Below are positions 16,088 to 27,892 of a stretch of 27,892 bases of DNA, piece after piece. The translations under genes were made by a program, and so were the position numbers. The DNA lies in IMG/VR virus record IMGVR_UViG_3300018416_000087, positions 1-27,892 of that record. One strand, written 5' to 3'. Positions within the stretch are counted from its first letter, which is position 1; the number at the start of each line of letters is the position of its first letter. Below the pieces are notes generated by a model. It saw nothing but the letters and a program-made list of their open reading frames with translations. It made no database searches and had not been told where the DNA came from. The stretch is from a virus.

Positions 16088-17301
16088 TAGGTTGTATAAG
16101 TTCCTCCACCAGCGTAAGGATTGTATTGTCCGTATGGATTACCGTAGAAAGCAGCAGGAGTTGCAGCTCCGCCTGCGGTAGCGGCAGTTGATGCGGGATC
16201 GCTAGAAGTTGTGGTTTGCGGTTTAGCAAAGTTAGCATACGTACTCAAAAAGGTTCCAAGTCCAGCACTTAATGGATCAGCTGGCGCTCCGTAAGTTGTA
16301 GCAACTTGTGTTCTTCCGCTTTGATATGTGGGCAAAAATCCTCTGACAAATTGAGCCGCTTGTGTTGGAGCCATTCTAGTTTGTATTGCTTGTTCGTATT
16401 CTCTGCCAAGCGCAGTATCAGTGAGACCCCTAGCTGTAGCGCCTAATCCTGATAATTCACCTCTTGACCTGATACCTAGATCAACCACATCTCTTCCTAA
16501 TCCCCCAATTCCAGCACCGTAACCAGCGATATCTGATCCTATAGTTCTCGCTAATCCAGCGCGTCTGCCGCCTATTCCACCCAACTGTGTTCCAAATCCA
16601 GCTAACGTGCCAGCTAATCGCTCTCTAGCTCCAGCTTGTCTACCAAACTCTCCTAACGCAGCCTGTTGCGCTTGTCCGAATCCTTGACTTCTAATACCCG
16701 CTAAAGCTTCGCCAAGACCTCTACCTAACGCAGCTCGTCTTTCATCAGCACTCAGTCTAGCTCTTGAACCAAAAGCAGATTCGCCTCCTTGCGAAATATC
16801 TCTTGTTCTTGCATCTATATCTTGCAGTTCTCCGCGTTTGAACACATCCTCTATTGTTTGTTGTACGACTCTATCTTCAAACGGATCGTAGAATTGCCTA
16901 GTCAATCTGGGATCAAACTGCATACCAGCAGCACGTCTAGCCGTATCAGTTGCAGCTCCCAAATAAGCTTGCTCGCCAGCAAAGTAAGGTTGCGCCAACT
17001 GTCCAGCCCTACGAGACATTCCCATGCCTTCTTGATAAGCTCTAGTGCTGGCATCTAAATACGGTTGATATGAACCTAAACCACCATAAGCACCCTGCAT
17101 AGCAGCAAGTTCTAACGGAGACAGTCCAGCAGTCTGTCTTAGTATTGCTGGTTGACCAAAAGCCCTGTTAGCTGCGGTTATAGCTTGAGAAATTATGCCT
17201 GGTGTATCAGGAGAACCAAAATAAGCCTCTCTAACAAAAGGATCGGATATTACTTCATCTCTTGCAATATTAGTTACGATTGGATTGATAGCTTCTGCCA
17301 T
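16087..17301 (-). CDS. Ala/Gly-rich virion-type protein, 404 aa
   Basis: Alanine/glycine/arginine-rich and mostly helical (residues 40-330), with repeated short motifs such as GELQDIDARTRDIS, GLGEALAGIRSQGFGQAQ and LGGIGGRRAGLARTIG. The C-terminus is Pro/Gly/Tyr/Ala-rich and ends in a YGNPYGQYNPYAGGG tail. No enzyme motif is visible. Composition and position fit a minor structural or ejection protein of a podophage. Both ends are TAATG overlaps, so it is translationally tied to its neighbours. Confidence 0.6.
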   Translation of the reverse strand: MAEAINPIVTNIARDEVISDPFVREAYFGSPDTPGIISQAITAANRAFGQPAILRQTAGLSPLELAAMQGAYGGLGSYQPYLDASTRAYQEGMGMSRRAGQLAQPYFAGEQAYLGAATDTARRAAGMQFDPRLTRQFYDPFEDRVVQQTIEDVFKRGELQDIDARTRDISQGGESAFGSRARLSADERRAALGRGLGEALAGIRSQGFGQAQQAALGEFGRQAGARERLAGTLAGFGTQLGGIGGRRAGLARTIGSDIAGYGAGIGGLGRDVVDLGIRSRGELSGLGATARGLTDTALGREYEQAIQTRMAPTQAAQFVRGFLPTYQSGRTQVATTYGAPADPLSAGLGTFLSTYANFAKPQTTTSSDPASTAATAGGAATPAAFYGNPYGQYNPYAGGGTYTT

Positions 17302-18644
17302 TACATTCCCTCAAATATATTCATTAACTCGCGCATGTTTTCTACGCCTTTTTCTCTTGAAGGTTCGCCACCTTGAACCAATTCAATACCTGACTTACCT
17401 TTTTTTAAATCGTAAGCGCCAGCGCCTCTTGTAGCTTTGGCCGTCATTACAAATTCACCATCACTTAACATCGCTGGTATATCATCAGAAGTGCCTGTAC
17501 CTGGCCCGATTGATTCTCCGCCTTCTCGTAAATCTAGTTCAGCCACTCCGCCAACTGCAAATGCTTGTCTTCCTGCTCCTTCAACATCCAAAACAGCTGG
17601 TTTAGGACCTAATCCAAATTCGCCTCTTGTTCCACCTGTTCCTAGTTCTTTTGATAATTGGTACCTACCAAGCTGATCCATCATTACTTGAGGAGTTTGA
17701 GCTAAACCACCAGCTCTACTTTTTGTATCGTCGTATACGGCTTTAGCAAGCAAACCTGTCAGACCAAGACCTAATCCGCCACCAGGAAAGCCTCCAGCTA
17801 TTTGTTGCGCTCCTTTACCAAGAAAACTCAAAGGACCCGTACCTTTGTTAGGGTCTACGTTAAATAATTTATCTGCAATACTATCAGGTCCAAATAATCC
17901 GCTAAATTGTGGTCTTGAAGACATCATTTGATTGTATTGTTCAACTGAAATATCTTGCATCGTATTTTCATTCCTATAACCAATCACATTTCCGTTTTGA
18001 TCCATAATAGGAGTGTATTCATCTTGTTGTCCCGCACCCATACCTCCAAACAAGCTACCTATACCACCAAGTACATTTTTGAATAATCCTTTTTTATCAG
18101 CTCCAGGCAATATAAATTCTTTGGCTCTGCTGAATAAACCTCCAAGACCGCCCCCTGCACTTGGGTTTATCCCTGGTGTTCCTTTGAATATATTACTAAA
18201 GATATTACCCTTTCCGCCAGTCAGACTACCAAGGCCCCCTCCGCCCCCTAAACTAGCCAAGGCAAGTGGACTTGCCCTACCTTTTGCAACGTCATATACA
18301 GTTCCTGCTTTTGCTATTAAAGCCGCAGGTGCTTGCCAAGGGCCAGGTACAAATTGAGCTACTGAAGCTACTTTTCTACCTACCTTTTTTATTTTTTTAA
18401 AAGCTTTCTTGAAAAACCCAAACTCGGGTAGTCCTGTTATAGGATTAATGGACATACCAGATCCAACGGCATATTCGTTTGGATCAAGGCCAGCTGCCCT
18501 CATTTCTTGGTTAATACGTGCTTGAGTTGCGGCTGATATAACAGGCGGTACGACACGCTCGCCCAAAGCAACGTGAGCTAGAAACTGATCTTCGTCTCTA
18601 CCTAAACTTGCTATTCCTGTCCCAGTTCTGTTTATTCTATCCAT
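17301..18644 (-). CDS. Gly-rich virion-type protein, 447 aa
   Basis: N-terminus: LGRDEDQFLAHVALGERVVP, then MSINPITGLPEFGFFKKAFKK, leading to a glycine-rich hydrophobic centre (GGGGGLGSLTGGKGN, GGFPGGGLGLGLTGLLAKAV). C-terminus: GTGTSDDIPAMLSDGEFVMT followed by AKATRGAG. The last motif recurs, from memory, in structural proteins of many marine phages. It suggests a virion component, perhaps membrane-active given the glycine-rich hydrophobic core and basic patch KKIKKVGRKV. Only 33 bases separate it from the upstream oxygenase gene; its SD is weak. Confidence 0.62.
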   Translation of the reverse strand: MDRINRTGTGIASLGRDEDQFLAHVALGERVVPPVISAATQARINQEMRAAGLDPNEYAVGSGMSINPITGLPEFGFFKKAFKKIKKVGRKVASVAQFVPGPWQAPAALIAKAGTVYDVAKGRASPLALASLGGGGGLGSLTGGKGNIFSNIFKGTPGINPSAGGGLGGLFSRAKEFILPGADKKGLFKNVLGGIGSLFGGMGAGQQDEYTPIMDQNGNVIGYRNENTMQDISVEQYNQMMSSRPQFSGLFGPDSIADKLFNVDPNKGTGPLSFLGKGAQQIAGGFPGGGLGLGLTGLLAKAVYDDTKSRAGGLAQTPQVMMDQLGRYQLSKELGTGGTRGEFGLGPKPAVLDVEGAGRQAFAVGGVAELDLREGGESIGPGTGTSDDIPAMLSDGEFVMTAKATRGAGAYDLKKGKSGIELVQGGEPSREKGVENMRELMNIFEGM

Positions 18645-19428: not shown

Positions 19429-19758
19429 TCAAACCTTTATACTTGTCGCTCCGTTGTTTCTGACAGTTACAGAACCCAGTTCTGATTGCAGTTCAAACCC
19501 CTGTGGATTCTTAGGAGTATGAAGCTGTATCCATTTGTTTCCAGTATAAACCTGTAAAACTCCAATAGATGTGTTCCATACTACATCACCTTCGTTAAAT
19601 TTTAAAGAACCAAGCTCAGTATCGTTGAATTGTGGTGTAGAGTTTGGGTCAAACGCACCAAGGTTCAACTCCAGTATTCTGGTTAATCTGTTAAAGTTTT
19701 CTTTGGTTACAGAAGGTTGTAGTTCTGTAGGTAAACGAGTTTCTAATAATTTGCTCAT
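19429..19758 (-). CDS. Small virion-associated hypothetical protein, 109 aa
   Basis: A helical N-terminal third (KENFNRLTRILELNLGAFD) is followed by a beta-rich second half (FNEGDVVWNTSIGVLQVYTG then KWIQLHTP) and a short Val/Thr/Asn tail (SVTVRNNGATSIKV). The G-D-V-V-W-N-x-x-x-G-x-L-Q-V-Y-x-G pattern resembles small fibre/tail-attached domains of marine phages. The start overlaps the stop of the large tail-type gene (ATGA), suggesting stoichiometric synthesis. Function unproven. Confidence 0.6.
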   Translation of the reverse strand: MSKLLETRLPTELQPSVTKENFNRLTRILELNLGAFDPNSTPQFNDTELGSLKFNEGDVVWNTSIGVLQVYTGNKWIQLHTPKNPQGFELQSELGSVTVRNNGATSIKV

Positions 19759-21620
19759 CTTCTACCATCAGTCTTAACATCCATTCTAGTATCCCCTAAA
19801 CGCCATCCAATAGACAAATTACCATCATTAGTAGCGTCGTCGTTTGATTCAAATCGTACTACAGCCTGTCTGCCTCTTGCCCTTAAATTTACTTTTTGAG
19901 TGGTTGAAGATACTTCAGAAGTAGAATCGGTAGTCAAAGAATCGCCTGGAAAGTTTCTTACTTTAGTTACTACGTTGACTGTACCAGAATTATCATCTTG
20001 TAAAAATTTGATATCTGGTATTAAGGCAGATATTTGCGTAAACCGATCACCATCCCCTATATCAAAATCGGCTGATTCCACAAACACGTTAGTCATCGCA
20101 CTTCCGTCGTTGTCAAAACCTATTTCATGTTGATACAAGTAACCGCCGTTAGTGGCTTGTGGAAATGATTCAACACCTGAGTCTAACCATACGGTTCTAG
20201 TCAATTGACCGTAGTACCAAACTTGTTGTTGAGTGTTGTATATAACATATCTGTCTATTTCGTCGCTTGATGAAGAAGGGTAAAACCAACCCACTTCATT
20301 ATGTTCACTGTTGGTAAATGCCTGTATTTTATAGGCTTGACCTGTATTAAGATCGCCAAATACATAATTATGAACGCTACAAGGCAGTTCCTGCACCGTA
20401 CCGTTATATAAATAGAAATTACCATATCCCATAAAGAATACGCCGCCCGAAGAAGTGATAGCTGCTTTTGGACCTATAAGACCTGATGCTTCGTTAATAA
20501 GATTCAAAGCAAAGGTTAAAGGTGCGCCTACAAACTGCATAGAATATACAGAGGTGTCTGTAAAGATTACAACTTCTTGTCTGGACTTAACGCCACCTAC
20601 AATACTAGAACCAGAAGACAATCTTACCGATCCAGCGGTATTGGTAATTTGCGGTTCAAAATCAAGTTCGTTTTCTTGATCGGAGAAAGCAACCAACATC
20701 GGATCTAACACTCCAGACCTCGCGCTACCTTCAATTGGATCAGCGCCTAAAACGATAAGGTGTCTGTCAACCTCTGAGGTTATTACTTGTAAACCTACGG
20801 TTGGTACAAGGTTGGCTCCAGCTATATCGGATAATTGGACAGCTCTGGTGCCAGTTCCGTTGTTTTCAAGCCAACGATAAATACCGCCACCTCTAGTATT
20901 CATAATAAGGTTTTCACCAAAGTTATCATGTGTCCAAAGTCTAAGCTGATTGTTACCACCTAATGAAGTTGCTGAACCCCAACCGCTTGCCCCCCACGTT
21001 CCAACACTCCACCCTGTTGATTGCACGTAAACATCAAGTCCCGTATTGATTTGGTAAGCTGCATCAGTAGCTGAACCGCCGTTTCCTGAATCACTTGCAT
21101 TAGCTGTAACCGTAGAGCCAGATGTATCTTTTGCGGTAATCGTATACGTGTTGGTGCCTGTCACTAGATCTATTTGATATTCTTGATTTAGTACAGCAGC
21201 TGTTACGTTACCTCCTAAAGAGACGGCATCTGAAAATGTAACAAAATCACCGTTTACAGCACCGTGACTGGCATCCGTAACCGTTACGGTAGAAGACCCA
21301 TCAGTGGCCGCAAAAGTAGCTGCGTTTGTTGTTGTTTTGCGAATTGGGGTGACGTCAGCAAAAGCTGTACCGTCTTTTATGTAATACTTTAAATGTGTTC
21401 CAATTCCTAAATATTTATTACCACTTAAAGAAATCCAATTGTGTAAGGCTCTAGCAGTTCCTAGGTATGTGCTGTCAGTAAGTTTTTGCCAACCTCCAAA
21501 TTTTTCTACTCTACCTTCTCTAAATCTAATTAAATTACAATCAAACCAACCGTTTTCGGCACTATACGCTGTTCCTTCTCTGTATATACCTGGTCTGAAC
21601 TGTACTTTTGAATATGGCAT
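19755..21620 (-). CDS. Large tail/hub-type structural protein, 621 aa
   Basis: Starts MPYSKVQFRPGIYREGTAYS then GWFDCNLIRFREGRVEKFGGW, a beginning I associate with a conserved structural protein of marine podophages. It reads as a beta-propeller-like or gp10-type tail-stabilisation protein (N-terminal part about 1-120, NKYLGIGTHLKYYI). Residues 90-190 carry an inserted Ig-like Thr/Ser/Asp-rich domain (FAATDGSSTVTVTDASHGAV). The rest is beta-rich with YVIYNTQQQVWYYG. It is probably a tail-hub or packaged-DNA-stabilising protein; no enzymatic motif. SD GGGAGAAAA precedes the ATG, directly after the lysozyme stop. Confidence 0.7.
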   Translation of the reverse strand: MPYSKVQFRPGIYREGTAYSAENGWFDCNLIRFREGRVEKFGGWQKLTDSTYLGTARALHNWISLSGNKYLGIGTHLKYYIKDGTAFADVTPIRKTTTNAATFAATDGSSTVTVTDASHGAVNGDFVTFSDAVSLGGNVTAAVLNQEYQIDLVTGTNTYTITAKDTSGSTVTANASDSGNGGSATDAAYQINTGLDVYVQSTGWSVGTWGASGWGSATSLGGNNQLRLWTHDNFGENLIMNTRGGGIYRWLENNGTGTRAVQLSDIAGANLVPTVGLQVITSEVDRHLIVLGADPIEGSARSGVLDPMLVAFSDQENELDFEPQITNTAGSVRLSSGSSIVGGVKSRQEVVIFTDTSVYSMQFVGAPLTFALNLINEASGLIGPKAAITSSGGVFFMGYGNFYLYNGTVQELPCSVHNYVFGDLNTGQAYKIQAFTNSEHNEVGWFYPSSSSDEIDRYVIYNTQQQVWYYGQLTRTVWLDSGVESFPQATNGGYLYQHEIGFDNDGSAMTNVFVESADFDIGDGDRFTQISALIPDIKFLQDDNSGTVNVVTKVRNFPGDSLTTDSTSEVSSTTQKVNLRARGRQAVVRFESNDDATNDGNLSIGWRLGDTRMDVKTDGRR

Positions 21621-22064
21621 CTAGATTTTCTCCCACTCTTTCCCTTCAAACAAATTAGCCTCTGCTTGTCTTCTTTTAACCAAACCCGCTAAAACCTCAC
21701 CACCTGCTTTATTCCAGCGTTTTATCTGTTCTGGTACGCCGCCATAATCGCCCTCATTAAGAATACGTAACAAAGTAGATTCTTTTAGATTGGTTGGTCC
21801 TAAGTTGTATACCCAACAAACTAATGCATCAAACTGACATTGATCTAACGGCACTTCTACCATATCGTTGATATAACCCTCGTACTCAGGCATCTCTTCT
21901 TTGAGTAAATGTTCGGCTTCGTTTTGGTTGATTTGATCGCCATCTTTTACATCTTTTGTATGTCCGTAGCCAATTGTCCAAACGCCTACGGAATCTTGAT
22001 ACGCTTCTAAACGACATCCCTCGTAGTTTTTAATTAACGATATACCTTCTTCAGATATGTTCAT
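21621..22064 (-). CDS. Endolysin, GH24 (T4-type) lysozyme, 147 aa
   Basis: ATG 22064 (MNISEEGISLIKNYEGCRLE) is chosen: AAGGA lies eight bases upstream, and the longer ORF from 22097 overlaps the holin. The catalytic triad is intact with T4-lysozyme spacing: Glu15 in YEGCRLEAY, Asp24 and Thr30 in DSVGVWTIGYGHT. A conserved WVYNLGPTNLKESTLL and a C-terminal GGEVLAGLVKRRQAEANLF complete the fold. It cleaves the peptidoglycan glycan backbone. No signal peptide is present, so it depends on the holin encoded just upstream. Confidence 0.96.
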   Translation of the reverse strand: MNISEEGISLIKNYEGCRLEAYQDSVGVWTIGYGHTKDVKDGDQINQNEAEHLLKEEMPEYEGYINDMVEVPLDQCQFDALVCWVYNLGPTNLKESTLLRILNEGDYGGVPEQIKRWNKAGGEVLAGLVKRRQAEANLFEGKEWEKI

Positions 22065-22065
22065 A

Positions 22066-22542
22066 TTAATCGTCCTTGGTTGTGTTAGATGCACCAAAGT
22101 AAAAACTAATAATAGCTGATGCTAAACCACCAAGATATCCGAGTACCAAATTGACCAAAGCCTCTGAGTTCTGTTCGGGGGGCTGGATAGTTATGAGAAA
22201 GATATATCCTAAGAAACCACCTAATGTAGCAATACCTATAATTCTGGCTGTCCAATCTTTAGAAAAAGTTGATCTAGCGTTTTGTGTATCTTGTACTTCC
22301 AGTTTAAATACATCCACCTCTAGTTCTTTCATCTTGACCTCAAACTCAGCTTCAGCTTTTTTTAGCTCAAGCATTTGTTCAGGTGTAGCATTGTCTATGG
22401 CTTTTTGTATTTCTTTAGGTTCGTTCTTACAACCCAATACATCTGCAATCATGTTTGCAGCCATACCTCCCATCGGACCTCCTAGAGCTGTACCTAAGGT
22501 TGGTGCTACTGATCCAACTAAGTTTTTAAGTAGTGCTTTCAT
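22066..22542 (-). CDS. 3TM-type holin, 158 aa
   Basis: Matches the Holin_3TM layout: an N-terminal Gly/Ala-rich hydrophobic helix (residues 11-37, SVAPTLGTALGGPMGGMAAN), a long charged coiled linker (EQMLELKKAEAEFEVKMKEL), then two membrane helices at about 98-119 (IIGIATLGGFLGYIFLITI) and 127-150 (LVNLVLGYLGGLASAIISFY), and a short acidic tail. It permeabilises the inner membrane to release the lysozyme. The start overlaps the stop of the cyclase gene (ATGA) with SD GGAGG, so holin translation is coupled to the signalling gene. Confidence 0.87.
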   Translation of the reverse strand: MKALLKNLVGSVAPTLGTALGGPMGGMAANMIADVLGCKNEPKEIQKAIDNATPEQMLELKKAEAEFEVKMKELEVDVFKLEVQDTQNARSTFSKDWTARIIGIATLGGFLGYIFLITIQPPEQNSEALVNLVLGYLGGLASAIISFYFGASNTTKDD

Positions 22543-24284
22543 ATATCCTCCAAAGTAAATATTTTTAAAGGCTCACTAATACCTTTAACTTCTATTGGTT
22601 GTAACGATTTTAGCTCAAAATTACAATTTTTTGCAGTCTCCTCTGCAATTATTAAATCTTTACCTACAGTCTTGCAGCTAGATTCACACCTAGCAGCGAT
22701 ATTAACAGCACTTCCTATAGCGCTATAGTCAAATCTTGTGTTACTACCCATGTTTCCTATAACTGCTTCTCCTGTATTTATACCAATTCCTATTGATACG
22801 CCTACATCCGATTCGGCAAATTGTTTTTGTATTTCTTTCGCACATTCTACGGCTGCTTGTTCGTGATTTTGCAAATCTATAGGAGCGTTAAATATGGCCA
22901 TCATTGCATCACCTATATATTTATCTACCATACCCTCGTACTTTTTAACTGCGTCTGATTGAATAGTGAGAGCTTGATTCATAATTTGAGTCACTTGTTC
23001 GGGATCCATGTGTTCGCTCATCGCAGTAAAACCACGTACATCAGTAAATAAAAAGGTACATCTTTTCTTTTCTCCACCTAGTTTTAACAGACTGGGATCA
23101 GATTGCAAAGCTTTGACTTGTCTTGGATCCAGATAATGTTCAAATTGTTTTTTAATCTGCTGTCGCAACTTATATTGTTCTCTGAACTTTATATAATAAG
23201 ATACGCTACCAACAATAAATTGACTTATAAGGGTCCAAGTCACGTCAATCAAAACACCATTTTTTATGGTGTAAATGCCGCCAATCGCAACTACAACCAA
23301 ACTTGTAGATATACCTATCAAACCTACAGTCATACTTAGTTTTTGTGTTAGATACCAAGCAAGCAAAATAAATATGGTGAATATTAAAAGCTCTGACGCT
23401 AAATGCCACTCGGGTATTTTTGGAGAATTTGGCAATAAAATTGATTCAGCTAAAGCAGCTTGTAAATGATGAGGATTCATCAGACCGTTGGGTGTAGGAA
23501 CCTGCGGTAAAATGCCCCCTCCACTTGTGCCAATAATTACATATTTATCTTGAGCTAGTGAGATATCACTCAAATTTATAATAGGAGTATCTACGTAGCT
23601 TACCCATTTACGCATCAATGGATCTACAGATATAGGTGGTAGTGATGGTACTCTAATTTCACCATCAGTCATATTTATAATGTATGTATCTTGACCTGTA
23701 AGTTGTTTGAGTATTTCTATTGCAAAGCTTGGCGCAAATCCATCAACAGTACGCAACAGTAACGGTATTTGTCTGACCAAACCATCTACATCTGTAGGTG
23801 CTGATGCGACGCCTTGAGATGCGTTATTCTTGAGTATCTCTATATTTTCTATAACGCCTCTGGCTTGATAACCACCTCCCGTATCCTCACCCAGAATAAC
23901 TGTACCTACCGTTGGCGGATAACTTTCGTTATCGTTTTCAAACATCGCCAATACAGAAGGGCCGTAGCTGAGAGCTTCAGAAAACGCTACATCTCCACCC
24001 ATTCTATCTGGCTGCGGAAACGTAAATGCCCAGGCTTGTCCAAAACTGCCAGCCTCCAAAAGATTTATTTGTATTTCAGCCAAACGCTGACGCGGCAAAG
24101 GCCAACCTCCCTCTTTTTCTATATCTTCTTCGTTAATATCAAGAATTACAAAATTACCTGTAGGCTCTTGTTTTGCAACAAAAGTGTCAAAAGTTTTTAA
24201 TTTAAGTATCTCAAGAGGCGTAAATTGTAAAGCTAGTGGCGTCATCAAAAGCGCAAAAAGTATTGGTAATGTATATTTTTTCAT
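22539..24284 (-). CDS. CHASE2-domain class III adenylate cyclase, 581 aa
   Basis: Membrane cyclase predicted to make cAMP. TM1 at residues 4-22, a periplasmic CHASE2 sensor domain about 23-290 (KLKTFDTFV, FVILDINEEDIEKEGGWPLP), three further TM helices (296-314, 318-338, 344-365), a signalling helix with YLDPRQVKAL, then the cytoplasmic cyclase (about 403-580). Catalytic residues are all present: metal Asp415 (FTDVRGFT) and Asp459 (DKYIGDAMMAIF), adenine-specifying Lys455 and Asp519 (DYSAIG), and transition-state Asn528 and Arg532 (VNIAAR). The Lys/Asp pair favours ATP over GTP. The start overlaps the FecR stop (TGATG); it runs into the holin gene by ATGA. A cyclase in a phage late operon is very unusual. 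Confidence 0.96.
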   Translation of the reverse strand: MKKYTLPILFALLMTPLALQFTPLEILKLKTFDTFVAKQEPTGNFVILDINEEDIEKEGGWPLPRQRLAEIQINLLEAGSFGQAWAFTFPQPDRMGGDVAFSEALSYGPSVLAMFENDNESYPPTVGTVILGEDTGGGYQARGVIENIEILKNNASQGVASAPTDVDGLVRQIPLLLRTVDGFAPSFAIEILKQLTGQDTYIINMTDGEIRVPSLPPISVDPLMRKWVSYVDTPIINLSDISLAQDKYVIIGTSGGGILPQVPTPNGLMNPHHLQAALAESILLPNSPKIPEWHLASELLIFTIFILLAWYLTQKLSMTVGLIGISTSLVVVAIGGIYTIKNGVLIDVTWTLISQFIVGSVSYYIKFREQYKLRQQIKKQFEHYLDPRQVKALQSDPSLLKLGGEKKRCTFLFTDVRGFTAMSEHMDPEQVTQIMNQALTIQSDAVKKYEGMVDKYIGDAMMAIFNAPIDLQNHEQAAVECAKEIQKQFAESDVGVSIGIGINTGEAVIGNMGSNTRFDYSAIGSAVNIAARCESSCKTVGKDLIIAEETAKNCNFELKSLQPIEVKGISEPLKIFTLEDI

Positions 24285-25402
24285 CAGCTACCTTGTTTTA
24301 TGGTAATTGTATTAGAAGATCCACCATTTACTTTAACTACATTTTCTACGCCATTTTGAAAAAGAATTAGCGTATAGGCACTTGATCCGTCCAAATCCAA
24401 TCTAAAAGTATCGCCTACCGATCTACGTACACTTACAACTTGACCAGTAATTATAGTTGTAATTTGTGTATCTTTGTCTTGACCTATATCCGTACCAGCA
24501 ATTGTAATACCTGTAGCAAGTTTACTTAATTGGTCTTCTTCTTCGTCAACAGCTAAAGCGTCAATAATATTTAAAAGGTCTTCAAGAAAGTTTACATCTA
24601 AGTAATTGATGTCTAATTCTGTAAATTCCAAATCTGCTTCATTATCTAAGAAATCTTCTGCTAAAAAATCTATATCTAAATCTGAAAAATCTAAATAATC
24701 CGCTGTACCAACTTGTTGTTGTTCTTCGGATAGATTTTGTTTTTCATCAGGTGGATTAACAATTAGCATGTTGTCTATAAATTCCAAAGATATATCCAAG
24801 ATTACAGGTTTTGACGGAGCTTGATTGTAAGTCATCGCAGTAGTCGCTTGGTATGCTTGATTCAATATGACTTGGCCCATCGCTGTTTCAACCACTATCT
24901 CCCCACTAGGATTGCCGTTTTCATCGGGTAAAAGAATAACAAGAGAACTGCCAGTTTCAGGAGTGGTCGTTATTGTAAAATCCGTACCCCTTACATACAC
25001 GTCAGCGCTTGGGGTTTTTATACGTATGGCTTTTTTGTTGTTGAATTTACCTGTAACAAATCTAGCCGTTCCTGAAGCAAAACGTAAAGCCATTTCACTC
25101 TTTGCTGGGTTAGGATCGTAAATGTAAGAGTTGATTACTAACTTGCTATGATCCATAACTCGCACAACAGTATCATCTTCAAACCTTATAGCAACTCTAC
25201 CTGCCTCAGTCTTTACGTTGTCAAGTTGCTGTATAGGAAAAGCTAACTCAGCGCCATAGGCTTTATCTCTGTAAACCTGCGCGTTGCCTTTTAGTTCGCT
25301 AATACTTCCAATATTAACAGCTTGTGCTTCCGCCCTGATCGTTTTGAATAACGCAAACGGTGCTAGTAGTAGAACCAGTGCTAATAATCTTGAGCCAGTC
25401 AT
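24284..25402 (-). CDS. FecR-domain periplasmic protein, 372 aa
   Basis: Signal peptide (LLALVLLLAPFALFKTIRAE, cleavage near AEA-QA), then a FecR domain at about residues 55-147 (LDNVKTEAGRVAIRFEDDTV, FASGTARFVTGKF, TPSADVYVRGTDF). A second beta region follows, then a very acidic stretch at 234-290 built on Leu-Asp repeats (LDFSDLDIDFLAEDFLDNEA), and a beta-rich tail ending VNGGSSNTITIKQGS. FecR-type proteins are known, from memory, to neighbour CHASE2 cyclases in bacteria, where they probably act as partner or input to the sensor. The first ATG after an in-frame TAG is 25402; it lies inside the curlin-like gene and has no SD. Confidence 0.9.
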   Translation of the reverse strand: MTGSRLLALVLLLAPFALFKTIRAEAQAVNIGSISELKGNAQVYRDKAYGAELAFPIQQLDNVKTEAGRVAIRFEDDTVVRVMDHSKLVINSYIYDPNPAKSEMALRFASGTARFVTGKFNNKKAIRIKTPSADVYVRGTDFTITTTPETGSSLVILLPDENGNPSGEIVVETAMGQVILNQAYQATTAMTYNQAPSKPVILDISLEFIDNMLIVNPPDEKQNLSEEQQQVGTADYLDFSDLDIDFLAEDFLDNEADLEFTELDINYLDVNFLEDLLNIIDALAVDEEEDQLSKLATGITIAGTDIGQDKDTQITTIITGQVVSVRRSVGDTFRLDLDGSSAYTLILFQNGVENVVKVNGGSSNTITIKQGS

Positions 25403-26027
25403 TATCTAATGTACTTTGTTGTTGAATATTAAAGGTTCTATTGCTACCTGTGTGGTCTAACCAAAAGTAGCCTCCTGCGTACCCATCTCCATCATACGTC
25501 ACAGTATTATCAGAACCGTCTATATCCATATAGTTTGTAGCACCATCTATATCTATGGCAGATGTAATGCTGTTACTTGAACCATTTATAATCCAATCAA
25601 GATCAAGAGTGCTTGCCAAAGCAACGGTAGCGTGATTCAAAGTGAAGGTATTGCTATTGCCTGTGACGTCAACATTAATATTAGATGAGTCTGCACCGTA
25701 GGTGTTAGTCTTATCAGTGTTCATGTTGAAAGTGTTGCTGTTACCGTCAAATTCAAAAAAGCCAGTATATGAATCTGCGGTAATGTCACCTAAAAATTTG
25801 TTACTGTCTCCTATTTGGTTAATATCAAGAGTCATAGCTGTACCGTCTAAGTTAAGAGCAGTCATTGTTCCTGCTACGGCATCTATACCACCAATGATGT
25901 TCCCAGAACCAAGTTGTTCTAAATCCATATTTGAATTTGAAGATCCTGAACTTTGATCAACAAATATCTCATTGTCTGCTGCAAAAAGGGGGGCAGACAT
26001 AATCATAATAATTAAAAGTCTTTTCAT
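25314..26027 (-). CDS. Curlin-like secreted repeat protein, 237 aa
   Basis: Signal peptide MKRLLIIMIMSAPLFA (cut before ADN), then about seven degenerate repeats of a beta-G-x-S-N-beta unit: LEQLGSGN (36-43), DINQIGDSN (68-76), FDGNSNTF (93-100), VTGNSNTF (121-128), INGSSNSI (147-154), DGSDNTV (169-175), HTGSNRTFNIQQQ (192-204). This resembles curlin X-Q-x-G-x-x-N repeats, with Gln often replaced. No charged core; two Cys near the C-terminus (225 and 237). It is the expected cargo of the CsgG pore encoded immediately upstream (ATGA overlap, SD GGAGG). It may form an amyloid or beta-solenoid fibre. Its 3' end overlaps the FecR gene by 89 bases. Confidence 0.75.
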   Translation of the reverse strand: MKRLLIIMIMSAPLFAADNEIFVDQSSGSSNSNMDLEQLGSGNIIGGIDAVAGTMTALNLDGTAMTLDINQIGDSNKFLGDITADSYTGFFEFDGNSNTFNMNTDKTNTYGADSSNINVDVTGNSNTFTLNHATVALASTLDLDWIINGSSNSITSAIDIDGATNYMDIDGSDNTVTYDGDGYAGGYFWLDHTGSNRTFNIQQQSTLDNDWLKIISTGSTTSTVCVIQNDQGGSTSC

Positions 26028-26824
26028 TCTTTTAACCTCCAGTATTTATTTTCTAAGCCTTGTTTGATTGTTTCTGCAACGGCTGTCTCGATAGCCATCT
26101 GCAAAGCAATACTGGTCGGCTCATTTTTTACCGCGCCCCCTTCTAATTCTACCAATTCTGTATTGTCTGATACAAATCTAAATACGTCGTTATCTAACGA
26201 TGCAGACAATACAGTTTTAGTAACCAATACTTCAAAAAGCACTCTACCAGTGCTTACTGAAACTGTTCTAAGGCTCACTGTCAGTATGTCTTCTCTAAAC
26301 TGACGTGACATGCCAATACCTAAATTCCTGGCTCCCACACCTCCAGAGCTTATATTTGCTTGATAAGACAAAACACCACCAGTCATTATCATGTCCCCAA
26401 ATTTGAGCGGCATAAGTTTTTGATCTTCTTCAAATGTCTCCCTTGTTGATCTGATTAACTGCCTTTCTTTAGTAACTGCATCTAGTGATACCCTTTCTAC
26501 TACATCAAAGAAATTGGAGTGTTTTAGTGCGCGTATAAGGTAAGCGTGAGGTGCTTGAGTAATCGCTGTACTAAATGTGGCGTATTTTGAATTTGATCGG
26601 CGTTGACCTGTTTGATCTTTAAAACCGTCAGGATATACAGCTATGACTGGCTTTCTAACAGGTTCACCAATATCTGATAAATCTGTATATAAAGACTCTA
26701 CAGTTGCTTTTTGTACGTTTTCAAAAGGTGGTAAATTATTCGCAAGGGGATCAATCATTAGCGTACAGCTAGAAAGTGAAACCGCCAATGGGAACAATAA
26801 CCTCTGTAACATTGCCGTCTTCAT
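26024..26824 (-). CDS. csgG: CsgG-family outer-membrane curli secretion lipoprotein, 266 aa
   Basis: Strong CsgG match: DQTGQ...FSTAITQAPHAYLI then SNFFDVVERVSLDAV, LIRSTRE, GGVLSYQANISSGGVGARNLGIG, LRTVSVSTGRVL, TKTVLS, FRFV, NEPTSIALQMAIETAV. A lipobox precedes Cys20 (LSSC). In curli-producing bacteria it forms the nonameric outer-membrane pore. Against E. coli CsgG, the constriction loop is one residue longer by hand alignment and the C-terminus stops soon after YWRL. The start overlaps csgF by 56 bases; ATG 26812 would give a signal peptide closer to the E. coli one (Cys at 16). Neither start has a clear SD, so coupling to csgF is likely. Confidence 0.96.
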   Translation of the reverse strand: MKTAMLQRLLFPLAVSLSSCTLMIDPLANNLPPFENVQKATVESLYTDLSDIGEPVRKPVIAVYPDGFKDQTGQRRSNSKYATFSTAITQAPHAYLIRALKHSNFFDVVERVSLDAVTKERQLIRSTRETFEEDQKLMPLKFGDMIMTGGVLSYQANISSGGVGARNLGIGMSRQFREDILTVSLRTVSVSTGRVLFEVLVTKTVLSASLDNDVFRFVSDNTELVELEGGAVKNEPTSIALQMAIETAVAETIKQGLENKYWRLKE

Positions 26825-27236
26825 CAGTAATAGTAACTCTTACTTCCTCGTCTGTAATTTCATATTCTATAGTGTTGCCATCCAGTTCCATAGATCCACT
26901 TTTACTTGTTTCTTCACCAAATAAAGATGCTTCTATTTGTCTTGCTAGGTTTGCATATATTCTGCTCGTCAGGTTTCTCATAAACCTTGCTTCAACAGTA
27001 TTGGTCTTTTCTCTTTCTAGTTCGTCACGTAAGGCTTCTATTTCATCTTTGATAGCTTGTTTACGATTAGTTTCTTGATTTTCAATAGTAAGATAATGAC
27101 TAGACGTACCAACTCCACTAAACGAAGGGTTTTTAAATTCATGCACCATTTCGTCAGCTTGTATTTGTTGAATTGCAACTACCAATAAAATGATTGTGGT
27201 GCCTATTATAAAAAATATACTATCGTTTAAATTCAT
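26769..27236 (-). CDS. csgF: CsgF-like curli assembly factor, 155 aa
   Basis: Hydrophobic N-terminus (FFIIGTTIILLVVAIQQIQA) acting as signal peptide, with cleavage predicted before DEM. It continues VHEFKNPSFSGVG, the counterpart of the CsgF segment (FQFRNPNFGG) that inserts into the CsgG pore. A helical middle (EIEALRDELEREKTN then FMRNLTSRIYANLARQI) follows, and a beta C-terminus (GNTIEYEITDEEVRVTITDE) resembling the CsgF tail that reads Y-I-V-D-I then L-N-V-T-D. It caps CsgG and links the pore to surface fibre nucleation. It lies immediately before csgG, an order known in curli operons. Confidence 0.87.
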   Translation of the reverse strand: MNLNDSIFFIIGTTIILLVVAIQQIQADEMVHEFKNPSFSGVGTSSHYLTIENQETNRKQAIKDEIEALRDELEREKTNTVEARFMRNLTSRIYANLARQIEASLFGEETSKSGSMELDGNTIEYEITDEEVRVTITDEDGNVTEVIVPIGGFTF

Positions 27237-27586
27237 CAGTCTTTTCGTTGGTCTTCTCTATCAGCCTTTGCAATTTTATTGCTGTCTATTAACTGCGGTA
27301 CACCTAATATAGTTTTGATAAGTGTATCTTGACGTATGATCTCGTTATCTAAACTTCTGACGCGATCAATAAGGGCGACCAAAATCCCGTGTTGTGAGTC
27401 TAGTTTTGTACCTAGTCTTTGTTCCATTTGTTCTATTTGATCAGCAACCTTATCGTCAAGCACATCAACTTTAGTTTCCATACCGTCAATAATACGGTTA
27501 ATAAGTTTCCAAATAAAGAACCCCAGACCTAACGCAGCAGCTATTGGAAAGCCTACTTCATTAATAAATTGAACTGCTTGGTCCAT
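27236..27586 (-). CDS. Membrane-anchored coiled-coil phage protein, 116 aa
   Basis: A short N-terminus, one membrane helix (about residues 10-30, VGFPIAAALGLGFFIWKLIN), then a long coiled coil (METKVDVLDDKVADQIEQME and onward) ending in a charged tail. The pattern (FINEVGFPIAAALG...) occurs in small marine phage proteins often listed as putative holin-like. Here a 3TM holin already exists, so a role as an accessory pinholin, lysis regulator or membrane partner of the curli module is possible. The start overlaps the upstream gene's stop (TAATG) and its own stop overlaps csgF (TGATG). Confidence 0.65.
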   Translation of the reverse strand: MDQAVQFINEVGFPIAAALGLGFFIWKLINRIIDGMETKVDVLDDKVADQIEQMEQRLGTKLDSQHGILVALIDRVRSLDNEIIRQDTLIKTILGVPQLIDSNKIAKADREDQRKD

Positions 27587-27892
27587 TAATCTGGATAAGG
27601 TCTATTTTGTATATATACAATATCAAGTGCTGCCGATACTGCGAGATTTGCATTTGAGCTACTAGCTATAGCTCTTACTTCTAAGTCGGTTTTTTCTTCA
27701 AATTTTATTGGATGTCTAAACTCTTGATGAATTATATCTTGCGATAAAGCAAATTTATCTTTTACGTTAAAAACGCCTCCGTTTGGTCTAGCTACCAGAG
27801 ATACAGTACCAAATTTGTTAGCCACCTCGGTATTCATACTAATATCTATTTGATATAAAAAAGCTGTATACCCTCTAGGAACTGTCCAGAAA
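27586..27892 (-). CDS. Virion/fibre-type protein, C-terminal part (open at window edge)
   Basis: The frame stays open past the ATG at 27837 to the right-hand edge, so this is the C-terminal piece of a longer gene rather than an 83-aa protein. The visible part (FWTVPRGYTAFLYQIDISMN, then EVANKFGTVSLVARPNGGVF) is a beta-sandwich type sequence, as in decorating or receptor-binding domains of marine phage virion proteins. The ending is VYIQNRPYPD. Its position at the head of the visible late operon fits a structural protein downstream of unseen head genes. Confidence 0.65.
   Translation of the reverse strand, partial: FWTVPRGYTAFLYQIDISMNTEVANKFGTVSLVARPNGGVFNVKDKFALSQDIIHQEFRHPIKFEEKTDLEVRAIASSSNANLAVSAALDIVYIQNRPYPD

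Follow-up and report, generated by a model that had tools for sequence, protein, structure and literature searches.

The virus record IMGVR_UViG_3300018416_000087 of IMG/VR, analysed here over its whole length of 27,892 bases (the window), carries at its right end and on the minus strand a run of genes for a CsgF-like protein, the outer-membrane pore lipoprotein CsgG, a curlin-like repeat protein, a FecR-domain protein and a CHASE2-adenylate cyclase, with a small membrane gene in front of csgF. Our reading, in which we have even confidence, is that a marine phage carries this run in its late region as a transferable secretion cassette of the curli type (type VIII) for making anchored fibres, with the FecR-domain protein as anchor and the cyclase as optional sensor. 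Late in infection, CsgF and CsgG would assemble into a pore in the outer membrane, and the curlin-like protein, exported by this route, would build fibres on the surface of the infected cell. The FecR-domain protein would be a secreted envelope partner of this fibre system, most likely its anchor or nucleator, its FecR fold being retained in the periplasm and its C-terminal, curlin-like end joining the fibre, and the CHASE2-cyclase would be an optional inner-membrane sensor turning an envelope signal into cyclic AMP (cAMP). The likely benefit to the phage would be fibre-mediated aggregation or exclusion of rival phages, rather than lysis.

Gene content and published relatives

The CsgF-like protein has a signal peptide by inspection and is 39-42% identical to the CsgF proteins of phages HTVC008M and Melnitz, and CsgG, with the lipobox SLSSC (also by inspection), is 38-40% identical to theirs. 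The curlin-like protein comprises a signal peptide (by inspection), a repeat region and a C-terminal Cys pair, and shares 25-33% identity with the curlins of the same two phages. Its Q-x-G-x-x-N repeat is invariant across 24 homologues, five curlin-core motifs are found where 0.66 are expected in shuffled sequences, and its fold model consists of regular beta strands at a predicted local distance difference test score (pLDDT) of 82. Two homologous Melnitz curlins pass the cut-off of PF07012, the Pfam curlin model, and the curlin-like assignment appears right on these comparisons, by way of relatives rather than of Pfam. All cassette genes are under purifying selection, with ratios of nonsynonymous to synonymous substitution rates (dN/dS) mostly of 0.02-0.1 in close pairs and, for CsgG against close relatives, of 0.02-0.03.

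The small membrane protein is predicted to have a single N-terminal transmembrane (TM) segment followed by a coiled coil, and its homologues measure 82-140 amino acids (aa; n=99); one or two of them precede csgF in HTVC008M and Melnitz. It corresponds by position to the gene labelled "histidine kinase" in PMC9599517, a label that looks wrong: the Pfam scan gives no kinase domain (HisKA/HATPase) and the window copy contains zero histidines.

Cassettes of this type have been described in pelagiphages and methylophages (Zaragoza-Solas 2020, PMC7029224; Buchholz 2022, PMC9004378; Wittmers 2022, PMC9599517), the last of these reporting CsgF-CsgG-CsgA/B-FecR from podo- and myophages throughout the ocean, frequently together with an adenylate cyclase. 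In a tblastn search of a phage collection, cyclase and CsgG were matched in HTVC008M (KC465899) and Melnitz (MZ577097), which hold the whole cassette in the same order, with CsgF, CsgG, FecR and cyclase 32-42% identical to those of the window; they differ from the window in having two small genes and, after FecR, a further curlin-like gene, and in having no lysis genes next to the cassette. Across the loci compared, which came from our first three scans of virus contigs and from the two reference phages, gene order is highly conserved: small gene-csgF-csgG-curlin-FecR-(curlin)-(cyclase), bracketed genes being optional. Podophages of the HTVC023P type show it as well (small gene or genes, CsgF, CsgG, CsgA/B, FecR, optional second curlin, optional adenylate cyclase; PMC9599517). 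In the regions compared, the window shares with HTVC023P only the tail protein (33%), and its placement of the cassette directly before holin and lysozyme is absent from the text of PMC9599517. Our search of the phage collection did not recover the cassettes of the Wittmers genomes. Among the cultured phages of the collection, the tail protein closest to that of the window (42%) is that of phage DSL-LC04 (OR003939), encoded in a late region where an endolysin and a 3TM holin are its neighbours; unlike the window, DSL-LC04 has no curli cassette, and few other genes are in common. To judge from these comparisons, the window holds a new member of the published cassette, in a lineage distant from HTVC023P. 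The same search returned two Acinetobacter-labelled records that match the cyclase domain only, and OR851715.1, a 1.5-kb record labelled Salmonella phage, which matches CsgG at 37% over 292-951 and is probably host DNA.

The genes are listed in Table 1 in order of transcription, from the small membrane gene through to the tail protein gene. From the small gene to the lysozyme gene neighbours overlap by 1, 56, 4, 89, 1, 4 and 32 bases, and the tail protein gene abuts the lysozyme gene. The initial annotation had recognised the genes from csgF to cyclase, in this order, as one gene-dense run of phage origin in which a FecR and CHASE2-cyclase pair is attached to a module for curli secretion, and this holds: the open reading frames are exact on the minus strand and have Pfam support (for the curlin through relatives), and tail, lysis and terminase-like genes are present. 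Its span of 22539-27236 is right for these frames; the holin and lysozyme genes that it had counted in lie outside, and the small membrane gene belongs to the cassette as well. The addition of the cyclase, which it had taken for new, was described in Wittmers et al. 2022, and HTVC008M and Melnitz have it in the same place. A chimeric contig is ruled out: contigs L015 and L004, from other samples and 99.97% identical to the window, jointly span 19489-27890, so that the arrangement is no assembly accident; a further contig, L005, aligns to 20026-27592 at 95%. Cassette loci occur in virus contigs, which excludes a cassette confined to bacterial ones.

Table 1. Cassette genes and their neighbours in the window, in order of transcription
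Feature	Positions	Strand	Matches and remarks
Small membrane protein, 116 aa	27236..27586	-	phrog_18771; 5' edge of cassette
CsgF-like protein, 155 aa	26769..27236	-	PF10614, E 2.4e-20; phrog_35372
CsgG outer-membrane lipoprotein pore, 266 aa	26024..26824	-	PF03783, E 3.3e-46
Curlin-like repeat protein, 237 aa	25314..26027	-	33% to HTVC008M curlin; repeat motif
FecR-domain secreted protein, 372 aa	24284..25402	-	PF04773, E 4.4e-12; phrog_37870
CHASE2-adenylate cyclase, 581 aa	22539..24284	-	PF05226, E 7.8e-28; PF00211, E 4.7e-20
3TM-holin-like protein, 158 aa	22066..22542	-	phrog_1544; neighbour outside cassette
Phage lysozyme (endolysin)	21621..22097	-	PF00959, E 1.1e-49; neighbour
Tail/stabilisation protein	19755..21620	-	phrog_3287, E 4e-70; neighbour, lineage marker

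Promoter-like and terminator-like matches in the window do not exceed chance (13 against 27 and 4 against 5 expected, respectively), and the RNA families and tRNAs looked for in the window were not found. The DNA alignments of eight near relatives end at 27592, the start of the small membrane gene; over 27592-27891 similarity to most near relatives is lost, one 99.97% contig excepted. The gene upstream (phrog_8198) differs, and the break suggests a recombination edge. A second variable segment lies at 17801-18342, where alignments to several near relatives stop and restart within the gene at 17301-18644.

The FecR-domain protein

The FecR gene is never missing from the cassette: every locus with csgG plus downstream genes has it. 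Its product consists of an N-terminal helix or signal peptide, a FecR beta domain (residues ~30-190), an acidic linker and a C-terminal beta module. The N-terminal hydrophobic helix, of about 20 residues, leads straight into the FecR domain and there is no cytoplasmic anti-sigma part; the window protein scan gave no sigma factor adjoining the gene. The fold model matches FecR/PupR domains (4m0n, 4m0h and PupR 6ovk) and superimposes on the adhesin anchoring domain 5ix9 over 62 columns with a root-mean-square deviation of 1.1 and 29% identity; 5ix9 is also the sole, weak PDB sequence match of the FecR profile (E 0.32). The C-terminal beta module ends in a curlin-like half-repeat, G-x4-h-x-h-x-Q, which 18 of the 23 representatives have, where 0.14 would be expected; Q370 is invariant in 26 homologues. 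None of the non-phage FecR proteins whose C-termini were inspected, a Hyphomonas one included, has this half-repeat.

LapA-type adhesins are held in an outer-membrane channel by retention domains (PMC6890996). We tentatively propose, as a possibility well short of probable, that the phage FecR protein combines an anchoring domain with a curlin end, such that the FecR fold would be held in the periplasm or at the CsgG pore and the tail outside would start or tie the fibre, a LapA-like retention through a curli pore with the CHASE2-cyclase as sensing add-on.

Several points weigh against anchored fibres, and against the FecR protein as their anchor. PF07012 gives no match to the window's curlin-like protein, whose fold model finds no PDB match below E 0.001. 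The FecR model reaches a pLDDT of just 71 overall; its C-terminal motif was defined after the sequences had been seen, in sequences that are related and hence non-independent, and since the C-terminus gives no match to the Pfam curlin model, its designation as a Pfam curlin repeat was rejected and the claim stays at the level of a motif. Melnitz-infected cells did not clump (PMC9004378), which calls for caution on aggregation, and no experiment shows fibres. Neither the gate CsgE nor the regulator CsgD, both found in curli systems of the gammaproteobacterial type, was matched among the 20 window proteins scanned, from a record that may be a fragment; the lack of CsgE counts on the same side. 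This absence does not exclude membership of the curli systems, because the alphaproteobacterial-type module has neither protein: CsgC, CsgD and CsgE lie outside it, and pelagiphages show the same absence (Wittmers et al. 2022, PMC9599517).

The cyclase, the lysis neighbours and competing explanations

The cyclase is laid out as a periplasmic CHASE2 sensor, transmembrane helices and a class III cyclase. Its catalytic set is complete (metal D415/D459, adenine K455/D519, transition-state N528/R532), and these six residues are conserved in 112-115 of 115 homologues. Melnitz is the main exception: its cyclase (L003 12670-14721) lacks the adenine-binding Asp and the transition-state Asn, residues whose loss makes its activity doubtful. 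Among the loci surveyed, 136 have the cyclase after FecR and 19 do not, which amounts to 7-9 state changes on the CsgG tree; recombination could lie behind some of them. In L007 the cyclase is cleanly absent and the DNA on both flanks still aligns at 88-91%. On this evidence the cyclase is an optional, dispensable part of the cassette and, because it is absent from 19 loci and FecR from none, the constant unit is csgF-csgG-curlin-FecR. CHASE2 cyclases of Sinorhizobium respond to their signal via an outer-membrane protein (PMC13001267).

The intact catalytic residues would also fit a cyclase whose cAMP reprogrammes host metabolism, the curli genes merely providing a structure to be sensed. One Pelagibacter-labelled metagenome-assembled genome (MAG) has two Pfam cyclic-nucleotide-binding matches; the other such MAG has zero. 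As it is the dispensable gene of the cassette that would carry this function, we consider the explanation very unlikely.

The gene that follows the cyclase encodes a 3TM-holin-like protein that is 24% identical (E 6e-7) to the holin of DSL-LC04. The latter holin passes PF11351; the window protein itself is unmatched by that model, and its position in the lysis locus fits. In the window's lineage, 83 of the 84 loci have the cassette ahead of the lysis genes; a few contigs yielded more than one locus. Either the 3TM-holin-like gene (56 loci) or an Rz/Rz1 spanin pair (phrog_739, phrog_812; 33 loci) serves as lysis partner, and never both in the loci examined, a swap seen in L104, L106-L108, L185, L194, L337 and others. 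Holin and spanin types split 45 to 28 with the cassette and 11 to 5 without it (Fisher p 0.78), which rejects a cassette tied to one lysis type; because the split is alike with and without the cassette, there is no association between cassette and lysis type. The presence of Rz/Rz1 in the cassette-free L106-L108 had hinted at CsgF/CsgG as a spanin stand-in, a candidate rejected as 28 cassette carriers also have Rz/Rz1. The gene order in L108, which is nuclease-lysozyme-tail without a cassette, against nuclease-cassette-holin-lysozyme-tail in L109, suggests where the cassette was inserted.

Could CHASE2 and FecR sense the state of the envelope or fibre, with cAMP triggering the adjoining holin and lysozyme genes and so timing lysis? 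The cassette does adjoin and overlap the lysis genes, in an order kept almost throughout the lineage, and the active site of the cyclase is conserved. Against this, the cyclase is absent from 19 loci and can be lacking where the lysis genes are kept (in L007 with both flanks in place), the holin/spanin swap is independent of the cassette, lysis genes occur in 16 relatives with no cassette close by, and the myophage cassettes of HTVC008M and Melnitz lie away from holin and lysozyme. We regard lysis timing as highly improbable and functional coupling of the cassette to lysis in general as unlikely on this comparison of loci; the adjacency looks like shared late expression. What stands of the coupling to lysis genes in the initial annotation is thus a gene order in one lineage, with no sign of it as a function.

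An improbable alternative, proposed in print for Melnitz by Buchholz et al. (PMC9004378), is that the CsgG/CsgF pore serves as a lysis or depolarisation device, with fibres beside the point, and in the window's lineage the cassette does adjoin the lysis genes. The carriers, however, keep a lysozyme together with a holin-like gene or the Rz/Rz1 pair, so that the cassette replaces neither. Moreover, a bare pore needs no curlin-like or FecR protein, yet both genes are kept under purifying selection, and Melnitz carries two curlin-repeat genes above the Pfam cut-off, contrary to its paper, which states that csgA/csgB are lacking. The same two genes, constant in the cassette, are left unexplained if CsgG forms an open pore in the outer membrane by which nutrients or cofactors are taken up in infection, as raised by Zaragoza-Solas 2020 (PMC7029224) and Wittmers 2022 (PMC9599517). 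Such a pore would accord with the lack of a CsgE gate among the window proteins scanned; the "FecR" of the window is no evidence for iron regulation, because it is a secreted fold without a sigma partner, and we rate uptake as quite improbable.

Chromosomal counterparts and wider meaning

Anchored fibres made by a transferable cassette remain our preferred reading, and an apparent chromosomal counterpart of that cassette, the only one among the genomes searched, was found in the MAG Hyphomonas sp. TMED17 (L290 8976-14999), where csgF-csgG-curlin-FecR-cyclase stand in the same order among metabolic genes on a 705-kb contig. Unlike the phage cassette, this operon has no small membrane gene, its curlin is longer (504 aa) and its FecR protein lacks the curlin-like end. 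Its CsgF, the only phage-type one in the order and phylum samples searched, diverges close to the base of the phage sequences, a position that is weakly supported; as TMED17 is a MAG, the operon may be donor or recipient, or an assembly artefact. Curli operons of the Hyphomonadaceae have csgF-csgG followed by curlin genes, as in the cassette. In 20 of the 21 CsgF-bearing genomes from the Hyphomonas family, no FecR or cyclase gene was found beside the curli operon, and on this ground we rejected the idea that these two genes normally form part of bacterial curli operons. MAG-binned contigs labelled Pelagibacter, Maricaulis, Sphingobacteriales and Saprospirales (L232, L233, L235, L236, L238 and L239) combine the cassette with small phage genes and are probably phage contigs. 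Apart from TMED17, most close FecR matches in bacterial genomes carry the small phage genes and look like phage contigs binned into MAGs.

Phage curli are reported to be common in ocean viruses, with detection at all 65 GOV2.0 stations (Wittmers et al., PMC9599517). New here are the small gene without a kinase domain, the FecR protein with a curlin-like end and an adhesin-anchoring-like fold, and the apparent chromosomal counterpart. The survey narrows the question to csgF-csgG-curlin-FecR as the selected unit, with an optional cyclase and an unlikely functional coupling to lysis, and yields a specific, testable role for the FecR protein, which may anchor or nucleate the fibre.

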